Shown one piece after another: positions 10,312 to 63,204 of a stretch of DNA of 64,000 nucleotides. A program made the position numbers and the translations under genes. The notes beneath the pieces are model-generated. The model was not told the origin of the DNA, ran no database searches, and saw only the letters and a list, made by a program, of their open reading frames with translations. Within the stretch, counting starts at the first letter, position 1; each line of letters starts with the position of its first letter. The stretch covers positions 62,001-126,000 of the forward strand of contig NZ_AP024620.1 of assembly GCF_023734095.1 (NCBI RefSeq), written 5' to 3'. The stretch comes from Moorella sp. Hama-1 (GTDB lineage Bacteria > Bacillota > DSM-521 > Neomoorellales > Neomoorellaceae).

Positions 10312-10465
10312 CGGAGCCCCACAGGGGGGCCAGCGCCCCCGCCAGCGAATTATAAAAATGGAGGCTAAGGTAAAGGGTTTGAGGTACAGGCGGAGGGCGA
10401 CTTGGTTCGAGGTATTAATAAACTCAGCGAAGCCGCGGCGAGAGAGCGGCTATGGGTGGGGATAC
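10312..10465 (+). repeat. Type B intergenic repeat, copy B3 (left half, inside the fix operon)
   Basis: Carries the shared head (GGAGCCCC...GCCCCCGCCAGCGAA), then GTACAGGCGGAGGGCGACTT, GGTTCGAGG, AAACTCAGCGAAGCC, matching the left arm of the full element at 61654-61967. The right arm is absent. It separates fixB from fixC by about 195 bp in an otherwise tight operon; no gene is seen in the gap. Confidence 0.75.
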
Positions 10466-10480
10466 TATCTATGGAGATGA

Positions 10481-11785
10481 ATGGGGATGGCTGAAAGGTT
10501 TGAGGTCGCAGTTGTCGGCGCGGGACCGGCCGGCCTGGCGGCGGCCCTAACCCTGGCCCGGGCCGGGGTAGAGGTCATTATCTTTGAACGCGGGGAGCAC
10601 CCGGGCAGCAAAAATATCATGGGGGGCGTCCTCTATCGCCACCCTACAGAAGCTGTAGTTCCCGAGTTTTATCACCAGGCCCCCCTGGAACGGCCGGTGG
10701 TGGAACAGCGCCTGTGGCTCCTCACGGCAGAAGCGGCCCTGACCCTGGGTTACAAAGATCAGGTCTTCGCCGGTGAACCCTATAACGCCTTTACCGTCCT
10801 GCGGGCCCGGTTTGACCGCTGGTTGGCGGAGCAAGCGGTAGCCGCCGGGGCGGTGCTGATTAATGAAACGGTCATTGAAGACCTCCTCTGGAAGGAAGAC
10901 CGGGTCATCGGGGTCCGGGCCGGCCGGGAAGGGGGCGATGTCCGGGCCGGGGTGGTCATCCTGGCCGAAGGGGCCAACTCCCTCTTGACCCAAAAGGCCG
11001 GGCTGAAGCGTGATGGCATCAGCACCAATCAGCTGGCCGTGGCTGTGAAGGAAATAATTGCCCTCCCCCGGGAGAAGATCGAGGATCGCTTCAACCTGGA
11101 AGAGGGCCAGGGCTGCACCATTGAACTCCTGGGGGAAGCCACCAAGGGCATGATGGGTACCGCCTTTATCTATACCAATAAAGACTCCCTCTCTGTGGGG
11201 GTTGGGGTCCTTCTATCGAGCCTGGTGCGCCGCCGCCTGAACCCCAATGACCTCCTGGAGCACCTCAAGTCTCACCCCATGGTCCGCCCCCTGTTGGCCG
11301 GGGGCGAGAGCAAGGAGTACCAGGGCCACCTCATCCCCGAAGGGGGTTACCAGGCCGTACCCCAACTCTATGGCAACGGCGTCCTGGTGACCGGCGATGC
11401 CGCCATGCTGGTCAACGGCATCCACCGGGAGGGCGCCAACCTGGCCCTGACCTCGGGCCTGCTGGCGGCTCAGACCATCCTGGCCGCCAGGGAGAAAGGG
11501 GACTATAGCGCGGCCAACCTGGCACCCTACCGCCAGGCCCTGGAGGAGAGCTTTGTTCTGAAAGACTTACGTAAATACCAGCGGGCGCCCTTCTTTTTTG
11601 ATCAGAACCCCCATTTCTTTACCCTGTACCCGGAGCTCCTCTCCCGGGCCGCCCGGGAGTTCCTGACAGTCGATAATGTCCCCAAACGCGAGAAGCAGAA
11701 CCGCATCTTGCGAGAAGTAACCGCCGCACGCAGTCGTTTCCAGATCGCCCGGGATCTCTATAGCTTCTGGAGGGTGATGGGTTGA
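10481..11785 (+). CDS. fixC: FAD-dependent ETF:quinone oxidoreductase-like protein (FixC)
   Basis: 434 aa. The N-terminal Rossmann motif VAVVGAGPAGLAAALTLARAGV is followed by FERGEHPGSKNIMGGVLY, the FixC-family signature. A second FAD motif is GNGVLVTGDAAMLVNGIHREGANLALTSGLLAA. FixC resembles ETF-QO and receives electrons from the FixAB flavins to pass to quinone through FixX. ATG 10481 or 10487 may be used, both after ATGGAGATGA. Its stop overlaps the fixX start (TGATG), so the two are translationally coupled. Confidence 0.92.
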   Translation: MGMAERFEVAVVGAGPAGLAAALTLARAGVEVIIFERGEHPGSKNIMGGVLYRHPTEAVVPEFYHQAPLERPVVEQRLWLLTAEAALTLGYKDQVFAGEPYNAFTVLRARFDRWLAEQAVAAGAVLINETVIEDLLWKEDRVIGVRAGREGGDVRAGVVILAEGANSLLTQKAGLKRDGISTNQLAVAVKEIIALPREKIEDRFNLEEGQGCTIELLGEATKGMMGTAFIYTNKDSLSVGVGVLLSSLVRRRLNPNDLLEHLKSHPMVRPLLAGGESKEYQGHLIPEGGYQAVPQLYGNGVLVTGDAAMLVNGIHREGANLALTSGLLAAQTILAAREKGDYSAANLAPYRQALEESFVLKDLRKYQRAPFFFDQNPHFFTLYPELLSRAAREFLTVDNVPKREKQNRILREVTAARSRFQIARDLYSFWRVMG

Positions 11786-24520: not shown

Positions 24521-24670
24521 ACTATTTTCGGAGGAGCCCCTCATGGGGGCAAACTCCACCAGCGAACGGGAGAAATGAGAGGCAAGGCTTTAACCTGAAA
24601 CTGGCGCAGCCAGTTTCGACAAGCCTCCCACCTCTCACCTCCAACCTCACACATCTCATTTCGGAGGAGG
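24521..24670 (+). repeat. Type A intergenic repeat, copy A4 (best-preserved)
   Basis: Begins CTATTTTCGGAGGAG and ends CATTTCGGAGGAGG. Outer arms GAAATGAGA (24572-24580) and TCTCATTTC (24654-24662) pair perfectly; the inner hairpin GAAACTGGC-GCA-GCCAGTTTC is 24597-24617. The CT-rich tract (24624-24653) contains TCACCTCC. GGAGGAGG (24663-24670) is the ribosome-binding site of the next gene. Confidence 0.95.
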
Positions 24671-26126: not shown

Positions 26127-26284
26127 TTGGCAGGACCCTATTTTCGGAGGAGCCGACCATGGCGGCGGGCCGCCACCAACGAAGGGAAGAAATGAGAGGC
26201 GAGCAAGCTTTAATCTGAAACTGGCGCAGCCAGTTCAAGAATCCCACCTCTCACCTCCCACCTCACACATCTCATTTCGGAGGA
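26127..26284 (+). repeat. Type A intergenic repeat, copy A5
   Basis: Begins TTGGCAGGACCCTATTTTCG and ends CTCATTTCGGAGGAG. Together with A6 it has a derived head (GCCGACCATGGCGGCGGGC) and a shortened right hairpin arm (GCCAGTTCAAGAATCCC). The whole gap 26105-26620 is occupied by A5, B2 and A6; there is no gene in it. Confidence 0.92.
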
Positions 26285-26457
26285 GCCCCTCATGGGGGGC
26301 TAACGCCCCCCTCCACGGACTATGAAAATGTAGGTTGAGGCAAGGGCTGGCTGGTACAGGCGGAAGGCTGAGCGCTAAGTTTGCTCGCCGAGAACCACGG
26401 AGCCTGGAGACCTGTACCGCCAGCCCCGCAGCGGTCACTGTAAGTTGCAACCATTAT
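26285..26457 (+). repeat. Type B intergenic repeat, copy B2 (internally deleted palindrome)
   Basis: Head CCCCTCATGGGGGGC, then TGAAAATGTAGGTTGAGGCA. Arms GGGCTGGCTGGTACAGG (26344-26360) and CCTGTACCGCCAGCCCC (26411-26427) face each other. The inner right-arm sequence AAGTTTGCTCGCCGAGAACC is kept but the inner left arm present at 61722 is lost. Ends GTAAGTTGCAACCA. Confidence 0.88.
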
Positions 26458-26615
26458 TACCAGAACCCGATTTTCGGAGGAGCCGACCATGGCGGCGGGC
26501 CGCCACCAACGAAGGGAAGAAATGAGAGGCGAGCAAGCTTTAATCTGAAACTGGCGCAGCCAGTTCAAGAATCCCACCTCTCACCTCCCACCTCACACTT
26601 CTCATTTCGGAGGAA
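26452..26615 (+). repeat. Type A intergenic repeat, copy A6
   Basis: Nearly identical to A5 from TTTTCGGAGGAG onward at a distance of 330 bp, so the two arose by recent duplication across B2. The end CTCATTTCGGAGGA is the ribosome-binding site of glmU. Confidence 0.93.
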
Positions 26616-26620
26616 TCTTT

Positions 26621-48720: not shown

Positions 48721-49110
48721 ATGCGGGGTATAAACTGCCTGGCCGGCAGGGGGCGCTGCCGGGTATCCTGCCGGGTTTTTGTCACCGGCGAGGGCCTTAT
48801 TGCCCACCTGCTGGGGGGCGAAAAACCCCATGTCGGAGCCGTAGCCCTGGGGGTACCGCGGCCGAGCCTGCGGGGAGAGGGTACAAGTGCCACTATATCG
48901 GTCCTGACCCTGACGGGCCATAAGGACGACGAGGTGGCCCGGCCGGCGGCTGCCACCATGGCGGCAGCCTGCCAGGCCCCAGTGGTAGTCGTCGCCGGCA
49001 TTCACCTGGACGGGGCCACGCCGGAAGAAATATTAAAGCTCCAGGAGAACACCCACCGGGTCGTGGCCAGGGCCGTCAAGGTCGTTAAAGTTATGTGGCT
49101 GAGTGCATAG
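48721..49110 (+). CDS. LpdD-like small protein (putative prenylated-flavin chaperone)
   Basis: 129 aa. The pattern LLGGEKPHVGAVALGVPRPSLRGEGTSATISVLTLTGHKDDEVARPAAATMAAA...VVVVAGIHLDGATPEEILKLQENTHRVV is that of the small LpdD-type proteins found with UbiD-family gallate decarboxylases, also annotated as PAC4-like. LpdD is thought to help deliver or mature prenylated FMN. The ubiX and ubiD genes upstream make this role plausible. ATG 48721 follows GGAAAGGGGGGCCAGTTC. Assignment is from memory of the pattern, so moderate. Confidence 0.6.
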   Translation: MRGINCLAGRGRCRVSCRVFVTGEGLIAHLLGGEKPHVGAVALGVPRPSLRGEGTSATISVLTLTGHKDDEVARPAAATMAAACQAPVVVVAGIHLDGATPEEILKLQENTHRVVARAVKVVKVMWLSA

Positions 49111-49160
49111 TTTGCTAGCCGACAACCACCAGAGCCCGGAGCTGTACCTACAGCCCCGGG
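49109..49160 (+). repeat. Type B repeat fragment, copy B4 (right arm only)
   Basis: TTTGCTAGCCGACAACCACC, then AGCCCGGAGCTGTACCTACA and GCCCCGGG, parallels the right arm at 61898-61946 (TTTGCTCGCCGAGAACCACG etc.). It is diverged and lacks the left arm; it lies in the gap between two convergent genes. Confidence 0.55.
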
Positions 49161-50795: not shown

Positions 50796-50872
50796 GGCGG
50801 TGTAGCTCAGGTGGTCAGAGCATGCGGTTCATACCCGCAGTGTCGTAGGTTCGAATCCTACCACCGCTACCA
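50796..50872 (+). tRNA. tRNA-Met (anticodon CAT)
   Basis: Complete 77-nt cloverleaf with encoded CCA. Acceptor GGCGGTG/CACCGCT, D stem GCTC/GAGC, anticodon stem TGCGG/CCGCA with loop TTCATAC (CAT at 50830-50832), T arm GTAGG-TTCGAAT-CCTAC. Acceptor and body match elongator tRNA-Met rather than the initiator, which has GGG/CCC in the anticodon stem. A tRNA-Met/tRNA-Glu pair also precedes spoIIE in B. subtilis. Confidence 0.95.
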
Positions 50873-50882
50873 GAACCAATTT

Positions 50883-50957
50883 GGCCCGTTGGTCAAGAGG
50901 TTAAGACACGAGCCTTTCACGCTCGTAACGGGGGTTCGATTCCCCCACGGGTCACCA
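50883..50957 (+). tRNA. tRNA-Glu (anticodon TTC)
   Basis: Complete 75-nt cloverleaf with CCA. Acceptor GGCCCGT/ACGGGTC, anticodon stem CGAGC/GCTCG with loop CTTTCAC (TTC at 50916-50918), T arm GGGGG-TTCGATT-CCCCC. It is 10 bp after tRNA-Met in the same transcript. Confidence 0.96.
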
Positions 50958-59713: not shown

Positions 59714-59873
59714 AGTGGATGGTCGCTGGTACGCCCGTTGGGCCATAAAGAAACATAAAATTTACTATTCAATCTACAAAAGTGGCAGCAGGAAAAATGA
59801 ACATTGTGTAGAACTTCACAATAAGAGAGGAAATGCTGGATGTCCATTTTTCCGTAAGAGAGGAGTGTTTACA

Positions 59874-61553
59874 TTGTCCAAGGTACCCAGTGATATCGAG
59901 ATCGCCCAGGCAGCCAGGATGAAACCCGTTATGGAACTGGCCCAGGCCCTGGGGCTGGAAGAGGACGAGGTCGAGCTTTATGGTAAATATAAAGCCAAGA
60001 TCTCCCTGGATGTTTATCGTCGCCTCAAGGACAGGCCCGATGGAAAACTTGTCCTGGTGACCGCCATTACCCCCACCCCGGCAGGCGAGGGCAAGACAAC
60101 CACCAGCGTCGGCCTGACTGATGCCCTGGCCCGCCTGGGTAAAAAAGTCATGGTTTGCCTGCGTGAACCCTCTCTGGGACCCAGCTTTGGTATTAAGGGT
60201 GGTGCTGCCGGCGGCGGCTATGCCCAGGTGGTCCCCATGGAGGATATCAACCTGCATTTTACCGGCGACATCCACGCCGTTACCTATGCCCACAACTTGT
60301 TAGCGGCTATGCTAGATAACCACTTGCAGCAGGGCAATGCCCTGAATATCGATCCCCGGACCGTTACCTGGCGGCGGGTCATTGACCTCAATGACCGGGC
60401 CCTGCGGAACATCGTCCTCGGCCTGGGGGGCAAAGCCAACGGCGTTCCCCGGGAGAGCGGTTTTGACATCTCCGTTGCCTCAGAGGTTATGGCCTGTCTA
60501 TGTCTGGCCAGCGACTTAATGGATCTTAAGGAACGCTTCAGCCGCATAGTTGTCGGCTATACCTATGACGGCAAACCGGTTACTGCCGGGGACCTGGAGG
60601 CCCAGGGTTCCATGGCCCTGCTCATGAAGGACGCCATTAAACCCAACCTGGTCCAGACCCTGGAGAATACGCCGGCCTTTATCCATGGCGGCCCCTTCGC
60701 CAATATTGCCCATGGCTGCAACAGCATCACCGCCACCAAGACGGCCCTGAAACTGGCGGATTACGTGATCACTGAGGCCGGCTTCGGTGCCGATCTGGGA
60801 GCGGAGAAGTTCTATGATATTAAATGCCGTTACGCTGGCTTAAAGCCCGACGCTACCGTCATTGTTGCCACCGTCCGCGCCCTCAAGATGCACGGCGGTG
60901 TACCCAAAGCCGAACTGGCCACGGAAAACCTGGAGGCCCTGCGGGAGGGTTTTGCCAACCTGGAGAAACATATCGAAAACATCGGCAAGTTTGGCGTGCC
61001 GGCAGTAGTAGCCATCAACGCCTTCCCCACTGACACCGAGGCCGAGTTAAAGCTCCTCTATGAGCTCTGCGCCAAAGCCGGCGCCGAGGTCGCCCTCTCA
61101 GAGGTCTGGGCCAAGGGTGGTGCCGGCGGCCTGGAACTGGCCCGTAAGGTTTTGCAGACCCTGGAGACTAAACCCTCGAACTTCCACGTCCTCTATAACC
61201 TCGATTTGAGTATTAAAGACAAGATTGCCCGGGTCGCCACCGAGATCTACGGGGCCGATGGGGTCAACTATACGGCTGAAGCCGATAAAGCTATTGAGCG
61301 CTATGAAGCCCTGGGTTACGGCAACCTGCCGGTAGTCATGGCCAAAACCCAGTATTCCTTCTCTGACGATATGACCAAACTGGGGCGGCCGCGTAACTTC
61401 ACCATTACCGTCCGGGAGGTCCGCCTCTCAGCCGGGGCTGGTTTTATCGTCCCCATTACCGGGGCGATTATGACCATGCCCGGCCTGCCCAAACGGCCTG
61501 CAGCTTGCAATATCGACATCGACGCCGACGGCGTCATCACCGGCCTGTTCTAG
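59874..61553 (+). CDS. fhs: Formate-tetrahydrofolate ligase
   Basis: 559 aa from TTG 59874, with GAGAGGAGTGTTTACA upstream; 559 aa equals the Moorella thermoacetica enzyme length as I recall it. The ATP loop is [20 protein letters not shown] (about 64-83). [22 protein letters not shown] and [21 protein letters not shown] are highly conserved. It activates formate with ATP to 10-formyl-THF, the first folate step of the methyl branch of the Wood-Ljungdahl pathway. A few residues differ from the M. thermoacetica sequence I remember, suggesting a related species or strain. It is monocistronic with its own terminator. Confidence 0.98.
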
Positions 61554-61580: not shown

Positions 61581-61610
61581 AAAACCCCACTCCCTGGCGA
61601 GTGGGGTTTT
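61581..61610 (+). terminator. Terminator of fhs
   Basis: AAAACCCCACTC (61581-61592) pairs with GAGTGGGGTTTT (61599-61610), loop 6 nt, with a fifth T following. Confidence 0.9.
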
Positions 61611-61653
61611 TGCTGTGTCGCCGGCAGTGGTATAATGGGGGCTGGAGCCCCTC

Positions 61654-62003
61654 ATGAGGGCTGACGCCCCCGCCAGCGAACAATGAAAATGTAGGTTGAG
61701 GCAAGGGCTGGCTGGTACAGGCGGAAGGCGACTTGGTTCGAGGCGTACAGCAAACTCAGCGAAGCCGAAGCGAGGCGGCGGTGAACGGGATGGGGATCGT
61801 AACGTAAGTTGAGGAACGAAGAGTTCCGCTCCCCGCTGCGGTTATCAAAGAGATAAAGTCATGCCACCCCCGCCGCCGAGGAAGGCTGAGCGCCAAGTTT
61901 GCTCGCCGAGAACCACGGAGCCTGGAGACCTGTACCAGCCAGCCCCGCAGCTGTTACTGTAAGTTGCAACCATTTTTGGTAGAAGTCTATTTTCGGAGGA
62001 GGT
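61654..62003 (+). repeat. Type B intergenic repeat, copy B1 (full palindrome)
   Basis: Head GGAGCCCCTCATGAGGGC, then outer arms GGGCTGGCTGGTACAGG (61705-61721) and its exact complement (61929-61945). Inner arms also correspond: GGTTC-GAGGCG-TACA-GCAAACT on the left, AGTTTGC-TCGCCGAGAACC on the right. The tail GTTGCAACCATTTTTGG...TATTTTCGGAGGAGG supplies the folP ribosome-binding site. A TATAAT at 61631-61636 with a poor -35 may transcribe it. The gap 61554-62010 holds no gene. Confidence 0.9.
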
Positions 62004-62010
62004 ACGTAAC

Positions 62011-63204
62011 ATGTCCTGGCAGGACCAGATCGAAATAATCAACATTACCGATACGGCGACAGCCGCCCGGCTCATGGGCGAAGTGGGGGCTGATAGCGCC
62101 GGGATTGAACTCATGCTGCCCAAAGCCCGTCATTATTGCCTGAAACTAAAGGATGTGCCGGCCCGGGCCGCCAATATTCTCAAACAAGAACTCCTGGCCC
62201 GGGGCGGCGAGGCCGCCATGGCCGCCGGGGTAGCTGGCTGGTCAGTAGATAGGACGGATATCCTGATTTTTGCCTCCCGGCGGCAGCTGGAACTCCTGCT
62301 GGCCAAGCTGCCCCGCCAGGGTTTCGGCCTGGATAAACTAGCGGACGGTATCAGGGAGGCCCTGGACAACTGGGAGGAGCAGGGCTACCGGCAGATAGCC
62401 TGCCCGCGGGGGCCCCTGAGCCTGGGACAGCGCACCCTGGTCATGGGGATAGTCAACGTCACCCCGGATTCCTTTTCCGACGGCGGCCATTTCTATGACC
62501 CCGGCGCTGCTGTAGAACACGCCCACCGGCTGATCGCGGAAGGAGCCGATATAATCGACGTCGGCGGCGAGTCTACCCGTCCCGGTCATGAGCCGGTAGA
62601 CACGGCCGAGGAATGGCGCCGCCTGGAACCGGTACTGCGGCGCTTGATCAAGGAAATCAAAGTACCCATCTCGGTTGATACCTACAAAGCTATTACTGCC
62701 CGCCGGGCCCTGGAGATGGGGGTCGATATCATCAATGATATCTGGGGTTTCCAGGCTGACCCGGAAATGGCCCGGGTTTGCGGGCAATACCAGGTGGCAG
62801 TTATTCTCATGCATAATCATGACGGGACCCAATACCGGGATTTAATGTTCGACATCCTCAACTTCCTACGGACCAGCATTAAGCTGGCTGAGGACAACGG
62901 CGTCCCGGCGGAAAAGATTATTATCGATCCGGGCATTGGTTTTGGTAAGGACCTGGCCCAGAATCTCGAGGTAATGGCCCGCCTGGGCGAATTTAAGGTC
63001 CTGGGTAAGCCGTTATTGCTGGGAACCTCCCGCAAATCCATAATTGGCAAAACCCTGGATTTACCCGTCGACCAGCGCCTGGAGGGAACTGCCGCCACCG
63101 TTGCCCTGGGAATCGCCTGCGGGGCAGATATCGTCCGCGTTCACGACGTGCAGGCCATGGTGCGGGTCGCCCGGATGACGGATGCCATAGTGCGTCGATC
63201 TTAA
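62011..63204 (+). CDS. folP: Dihydropteroate synthase, long form
   Basis: 397 aa, against about 270-280 for ordinary FolP. The C-terminal TIM barrel is complete: VMGIVNVTPDSFSDGGHFYDPGAAVEHA (about 144-171), ADIIDVGGESTRPGHEPV, VPISVDTYKA, INDIWGFQADPEMARV, IIIDPGIGFGKDLAQNLEVM, LLGTSRKSIIG and RVHDVQAM. The first about 130 residues are an extra domain I do not recognise (starts MSWQDQIEIINITDTATAARLMGEVGADSAG in pieces). It makes dihydropteroate, needed for the large folate demand of acetogenesis. ATG 62011 uses the site at the end of repeat B1. Confidence 0.92.
   Translation: MSWQDQIEIINITDTATAARLMGEVGADSAGIELMLPKARHYCLKLKDVPARAANILKQELLARGGEAAMAAGVAGWSVDRTDILIFASRRQLELLLAKLPRQGFGLDKLADGIREALDNWEEQGYRQIACPRGPLSLGQRTLVMGIVNVTPDSFSDGGHFYDPGAAVEHAHRLIAEGADIIDVGGESTRPGHEPVDTAEEWRRLEPVLRRLIKEIKVPISVDTYKAITARRALEMGVDIINDIWGFQADPEMARVCGQYQVAVILMHNHDGTQYRDLMFDILNFLRTSIKLAEDNGVPAEKIIIDPGIGFGKDLAQNLEVMARLGEFKVLGKPLLLGTSRKSIIGKTLDLPVDQRLEGTAATVALGIACGADIVRVHDVQAMVRVARMTDAIVRRS

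Follow-up and report, generated by a model that had tools for sequence, protein, structure and literature searches.

What is the large imperfect palindrome that lies between folP and its likely promoter, and does it behave as a mobile element or as a structured RNA? A sequence-only reading of the window, by which we mean the whole 64-kb stretch of DNA analyzed here (positions 62001–126000 of a 3.32-Mb genome in a single contig), had posed these two as alternatives and had placed the feature at 61654–62003. We searched the entire genome and found an element at this place, with recurrent borders at 61644–62001 instead. We consider it likely that the folP feature is one copy of a family of non-autonomous mobile elements that insert inside Shine-Dalgarno (SD) sequences in the sense direction. 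SD insertion is the main property of the family and was absent from the earlier reading. The element and its surroundings comprise the following parts.

61592–61606, + strand: terminator-like stem followed by a T run, 3' of the formate-THF ligase gene (59715–61553)
61631–61636, + strand: TATAAT, likely −10 box of folP, judged from the sequence and from empty sites L135, L145, and L157
61644–62001, + strand: type B element at folP, 358 bp including the left GGAG
61644–61647, + strand: left GGAG, remnant of the target SD and first recurrent border
61648–62001, + strand: type B body (CCCCTCATG ... TATTTTCGGAGGAG)
61654–61686, + strand: short frame, ATG...TGA, presumably translated, with its start codon exactly 6 nt past GGAG
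61705–61721, + strand: left outer arm, 17 bp exact
61706–61945, + strand: conserved hairpin core with 32 covarying or constant pairs, the sole part common to other genera
61929–61945, + strand: right outer arm, 17 bp exact
61988–62001, + strand: tail TATTTTCGGAGGAG, the present folP SD (folP ATG at 62011)
62011–63204, + strand: folP, the host gene, dihydropteroate synthase (Pfam Pterin_bind)

A promoter scan returned none at its threshold upstream of the folP element. In sisters without the element, TATAAT lies ~10 nt before the folP SD, and here it lies directly upstream of the element. We therefore infer that the element forms the folP 5' leader, which would be ~350 nt long and lie between promoter and start codon.

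The folP element belongs to a dispersed family

Using the folP element as the query, we obtained at least 47 matches in the genome, at least 41 of them 296 bp or longer, and nearly all of them have the borders GGAGCCCC and TATTTTCGGAGGAG. A second type, type A, has ends in common with type B and is present in at least 44 copies of 137–141 bp. Further copies with recurring borders had been anticipated, and more than 80 of types A and B together are found genome-wide. Decayed fragments are common. In the first half of the contig most copies are on the + strand and in the second half most are on the − strand, as expected if they follow gene direction. The window contains these additional copies:

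10313–10442, + strand: B3, left part of a type B copy, upstream of the gene at 10481, 79% identity
21174–21313, + strand: type A copy
24533–24669, + strand: type A copy directly upstream of a GntR-type regulator gene
26149–26285, + strand: type A copy, head-to-tail upstream of B2, with a GGAG common to both
26282–26482, + strand: B2, type B, in the leader of a glmU-like gene
26479–26615, + strand: type A copy chained 3' of B2, its tail being the SD of the glmU-like gene
49097–49158, + strand: B4, right part of a decayed type B copy, 80% identity

The incomplete copies B2, B3, and B4 had already been picked out in the sequence-only reading. B2 is real and is a folP-type element lacking 157 bp between two GGAAGGC repeats (61723 and 61880 in the folP copy), and B3 and B4 are confirmed as a left part only and a right part only. 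The glmU-like leader (window 26139–26620) carries the chain A, deleted B2, A, and a full type B copy occupies the SD of apparently the same gene in a sister (G004, L095); either this target was hit repeatedly or the insertion is old and shared. Elsewhere in the window, two adjacent tRNA genes lie at 50796–50954.

Type B is present in all 10 sister genomes searched, in differing copy number, and its core alone was found in two other genera. A sample of 398 genomes of the phylum contained 11 with a match, of which eight belong to the same genus, one to another genus in the family, and one to another family; the eleventh has a short match. A genome-contig collection, searched with a pattern that deliberately omitted the common form of the element, gave one Clostridia MAG (three loci) and two chance-like matches on Gordonia and Fimbriiglobus contigs, and viral contigs gave no match to the type B core. 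Sister G007 is rich in type A (at least 45 copies), and the hairpin and 7-nt-repeat part of type A has 21 matches in G014, from another family of the order.

Copies probably insert inside Shine-Dalgarno sequences

For an empty-site comparison we used 14 host genes and their orthologous leaders in sister species, with host gene names assigned partly by protein structure match and partly by reading the sequence. Most comparable leaders in the sisters have a single SD and no element, including those of folP, glyA, rplL, efp, acsE, aspartate kinase, folD, a P-II-like gene, and others. The empty sites read GAGATTCTGGAGGAG/GTTACTATG for aspartate kinase and ACATTTCGAGAGGAG/GTTTAGC for the P-II-like gene (both in G006), and TATAATATACTGCGGAGGATGATTTCTATG for folP (G009). 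A filled site has the form target-left, GGAG, element, GGAG, target-right. Beside one copy lies an AcsE-like protein gene whose product shares about 93% of 164 residues with structures 2ogy, 2e7f, and 1f6y of Moorella thermoacetica AcsE, which makes Moorella the most likely genus.

We then measured the distance from tail to host gene, counting start codons that open at least 50 codons and treating as terminal the 70 of 92 unique 3' ends that are not chained. A start codon lies 3–14 nt past the tail in 50 of these 70 terminal copies, mostly at 6–11 nt, and in 19 of 19 terminal copies in sisters; the corresponding figure for random GGAG sites in the window is 18.5%. For a minority of terminal copies, no SD is recognizable at the site, and some of these are real intergenic insertions. 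Because of the empty and filled sites and the start-codon spacing, we place the element inside the SD, in the sense direction, with its tail TATTTTCGGAGGAG as the new SD. The sequences show that the target SD is kept at the left end and that the tail brings a second SD, at a working distance from the host start. As intergenic GGAG sites are probably mostly SDs, the enrichment could in part reflect purifying selection acting on an inserter specific for GGAG.

Identity is 99.4% between the folP copy and one lying 2.35 Mb from it (L002, at 2,476,456) and 99.3% for the best type A pair at distant loci; the folP and L002 sites are both empty in G009. The identity between distant copies indicates recent movement. 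With empty orthologous sites in sisters and near-identical copies far apart, the suggestion of mobility has held, and a mobile, SD-inserting family is well supported. Many copies are diverged (median pairwise identity 80%), and this, together with the common fragments, would suit old immobile repeats that were spread by recombination between SD-like sequences or are chance decay products. Such an origin is largely refuted by the near-identical distant pairs of both types, whose flanks are unrelated, and by the precise empty sites, and we regard it as very improbable.

Common heads and tails enclose different bodies

Types A and B have a common head (GGAG-CC...-ATG) and tail (...ATTTTCGGAGGAG) and different bodies, and additional bodies occur in sister species. 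The shared ends seen in the window are thus real, and the proposal of a modular family with interchangeable bodies is supported. Of 46 unique heads, 42 place an ATG exactly 6 nt past the captured GGAG (27/29 in type B, 15/17 in type A). Three of the six spacer bases between GGAG and ATG are variable in type A, and the head ATG is gone from several diverged sister-species copies. Type A consists in its 3' third of degenerate 7-nt repeats (lag-7 identity 0.64 versus 0.33 when shuffled); short tandem repeats at the 3' end are found in type A only.

Of the 92 unique 3' ends, 22 run directly into the head of another element, with the tail-to-head joint TATTTTCGGAGGAGCCCCTCATG. Comparison of the copies shows two further features at the sequence level: copies insert into the tails of older ones, which produces head-to-tail chains, and the two types have exchangeable bodies between common ends, the type B body being a conserved, covarying hairpin.

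Several sister genomes contain related-looking repeats. In G004 and G006, the same GGAG-N6-ATG head is joined to other bodies (L206 and L207), with CGCAGGAG on both sides of L207. Other dispersed palindromic repeats (L130, L136, L144, L152, L142, L165, L089, and L119) appear to be additional bodies of this system or of one like it; some end in TTATTTTCAGGGTAG or GTATTTTAAGGAGG, and some carry GGGACATATCCC or GGAGCCGCGAATAG. In G014, which belongs to another family and is not one of the sisters, L194, L205, and L214 consist of a hairpin, GGAACTGGCGCAGCCGGTTCC, and then 7-nt repeats as in type A. They are not at SDs and seem to end at TTTTC-AGGG-like sites.

The type B body contains a conserved hairpin

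The folP strand from 61644 to 62001 folds at −162.5 kcal/mol against a mean of −125.3 for 100 shuffles (z = −6.8), and the type A fold is also stable (z about −4). The exact 17-bp arms first described at 61705–61721 and 61929–61945 are present. The second, inner pair of arms (AGCAAACT/AGTTTGCT) did not stand up as a conserved helix, as many copies have AGATACTT on the left with an unchanged AGTTTGCT on the right. Conserved pairing instead consists of the outer arm and several short helices. In 34 diverse copies from three genera, 97.7% of the cells of the 32 core pairs are standard pairs, and 24 cells are changed on both sides versus 4.3 in shuffles. Sliding the partners destroys the core pairing. 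The block GGTGAACGGGATGGGG is nearly invariant among aligned copies. A manual tally of core pair types gave about 25 G-U versus 9 A-C cells, and this excess favors the + strand as the folded form, whether as sense RNA or as that DNA strand. A functional hairpin on the + strand is well supported. Mobile element and structured RNA were offered as alternatives; the empty sites and near-identical distant copies, taken with the covariation of the core, favor both together.

A fold of this kind in a leader also brings to mind a cis-regulatory RNA, a riboswitch or attenuator of folate and other genes that is kept for translation control and whose repeats form a regulon. The sense position in 5' leaders, the stable fold, and its covariation agree with this, as does a possible pairing, in the predicted fold, between CCUC of the head and GAGG of the tail. 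However, the hosts (folP, rplL, efp, an ftsW-like gene, aspartate kinase, glyA, and acsE) have no common pathway, presence at the same gene varies between sister species, distant copies are near-identical, and decayed fragments are common. Rfam gave no match at the gathering threshold and, at a permissive threshold, only sub-threshold chance matches. Regulation as the reason for these repeats is improbable in our estimation.

Junctions are variable

We examined the flanks of the copies for traces of the insertion mechanism. GGAG is always doubled, standing at both sides, and longer shared sequence occurs only in some copies. The left flank is native wherever it can be judged. The right flank is native at L003 and at L005, L061, and L063, where CAAAGGAG, CAAAGGAG, and CGTAGGAG, respectively, stand on both sides and resemble empty sites. 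At folP, L021, and L046, the right flank is the element's own CGGAGGAG (CGGA) or a one-base variant. Left and right flanks of type B correlate at positions −8 to −5 (p = 0.0002, permutation); no correlation is seen in type A or further out. Part of this correlation may stem from chains, because many left flanks are remnants of older tails. The type B correlation hints at a fixed 8-bp target duplication, which is contradicted by folP, L021, and L046 and is absent in type A. The search for target duplications suggested earlier yielded no clean one of fixed length. Tandem SD repeats flank two copies, one of 16 bp on the right of L002 (G000 2476456; TCTATTTTCCAAGGAG) and one of 12 bp on the left of L021 (G000 1571091; GATTCTGGAGGA). 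As read from the aligned flanks, the junctions are variable and unlike the product of a fixed-stagger transposase. Not all of them seem explicable by a target duplication of fixed length, nor all by a constant end of the element.

Candidates for the moving machinery

An autonomous parent with the same ends had been proposed as something to look for. We read 20 stretches of the genome itself, most of them picked for such tail sites, and none contained one; loci with unassigned tail-plus-CC sites were A or B copies or ordinary gene starts. The ends GGAGCCCCTCATG and TATTTTCGGAGGAG are not inverted copies of one another, so terminal inverted repeats are lacking, and the 17-bp arms lie ~60 bp inside. 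No Y1 transposase was found in the genome. An IS110 bridge-RNA element was rejected, as the single IS110 copy has ends and an RNA region unrelated to the element. An OMEGA/TnpB-associated element was rejected likewise, since the ends of the single tnpB locus are unrelated. A reverse transcriptase (RT) as a part of the element was also rejected, as both RT loci are plain group II introns that lack element ends, and group II Rfam models match only there and not at the element.

Movement in trans as DNA, by a site-specific recombinase or a single-strand (IS200/605-like) transposase with crossover at GGAG and a parent since lost or unrecognized, is a serious candidate, though we rate it somewhat below an even chance. 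The chains could be the tail-to-head joints of a circle, hairpins lie near both ends, and the filled sites of folP, L021, and L046 match a crossover at GGAG. Native variants on both sides at L005, L061, and L063 do not fit a single crossover, and the missing Y1 gene and the unrelated ends of the lone IS110 and TnpB copies also count against it.

An RNA-derived retroelement, a bacterial analogue of SINEs, would have its RNA copied into SD sites by target priming with an RT encoded elsewhere. SINE tails often end in short repeats, and type A ends in its degenerate 7-nt repeats. Sense insertion, dissimilar ends without terminal inverted repeats, an RNA-like covarying core with G-U excess, a right junction that is at times native and at times element-derived, and the type B flank correlation all point the same way, and the genome does carry one intact group II intron RT. 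That correlation may, however, derive from tandem chains sharing tails, and full-length copies are common. RT number is also out of step with copy number: G007 has no RT and G009 has 13 RT matches and few copies, a comparison in which two genomes are incomplete (the G007 draft is 84% complete). Many of the G009 matches are equal in score, as in a group II intron burst in one sister. We consider retroposition unlikely.

A model for insertion into start signals

Taken together, the copies probably represent a non-autonomous, modular, SD-inserting mobile element whose body is RNA-like and whose movement depends on an enzyme acting in trans. Its hairpin would act as RNA or single strand recognized by a moving machinery encoded elsewhere. 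Insertions would persist since the tail rebuilds the SD. The head would give the captured SD an ATG at 6 nt, so that a short frame would be translated to its stop and ribosomes would reinitiate at the tail SD. A translation-neutral design of this kind, combining the head frame and the tail SD, is plausible from the layout of the copies. One may go further and imagine mobile RNAs that target the ribosome binding sites of mRNAs or genes, copy themselves into DNA, and rebuild the start signal, as a harmless bacterial counterpart of SINEs with translation-neutral insertion; we hold this to be a long shot.

As a rule, small mobile repeats survive by staying clear of genes. The family described here lands on the most conserved short signal upstream of genes and carries a replacement along, which makes entry possible into the leaders of essential genes (rplL, folP, efp, glyA, and acsE). 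Should SD targeting be confirmed, the family would exemplify a safe-harbor strategy absent from the literature searched. It would also give rise to long new leaders and short upstream frames in acetogens of biotechnological use and offer a concrete setting for the search for a new mobility enzyme.

Comparison with known systems

A search of freely accessible papers found no publication on these repeats, and several known systems resemble them in part. Like riboswitches and other leader RNAs, the element has a 5' leader position and a stable, covarying fold; unlike them, it has many unrelated hosts, varies in presence between sisters, and lacks an Rfam match. The same lack of a model match sets it apart from introns and known ribozymes. 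MITEs, BOX, RUP, and similar small interspersed repeats (PMC3049150 for the pneumococcal ones) are likewise non-autonomous, dispersed, partly palindromic, and intergenic, whereas the element has two dissimilar ends without terminal inverted repeats and inserts inside SDs. REPINs (Bertels and Rainey 2011, PMC3116915) are also short, gene-less, and hairpin-forming, occur in many copies and in clusters, and are thought to be moved in trans. However, a REPIN is made of two inverted REPs and is linked to a Y1 (RAYT) gene, while the element has a body of 140–360 nt, sense insertion at SDs, and no Y1 gene. In position, the closest published counterpart is the TAACTGA heptamer repeat of Beggiatoaceae, located immediately upstream of start codons where the ribosome binding site is expected (MacGregor 2015, PMC4679880). 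Its 7-nt units and 7-nt-step changes recall the 3' third of type A. These heptamers are bare, have no structured body or SD, and lie where an SD would be, whereas the element described here carries and rebuilds a canonical SD.
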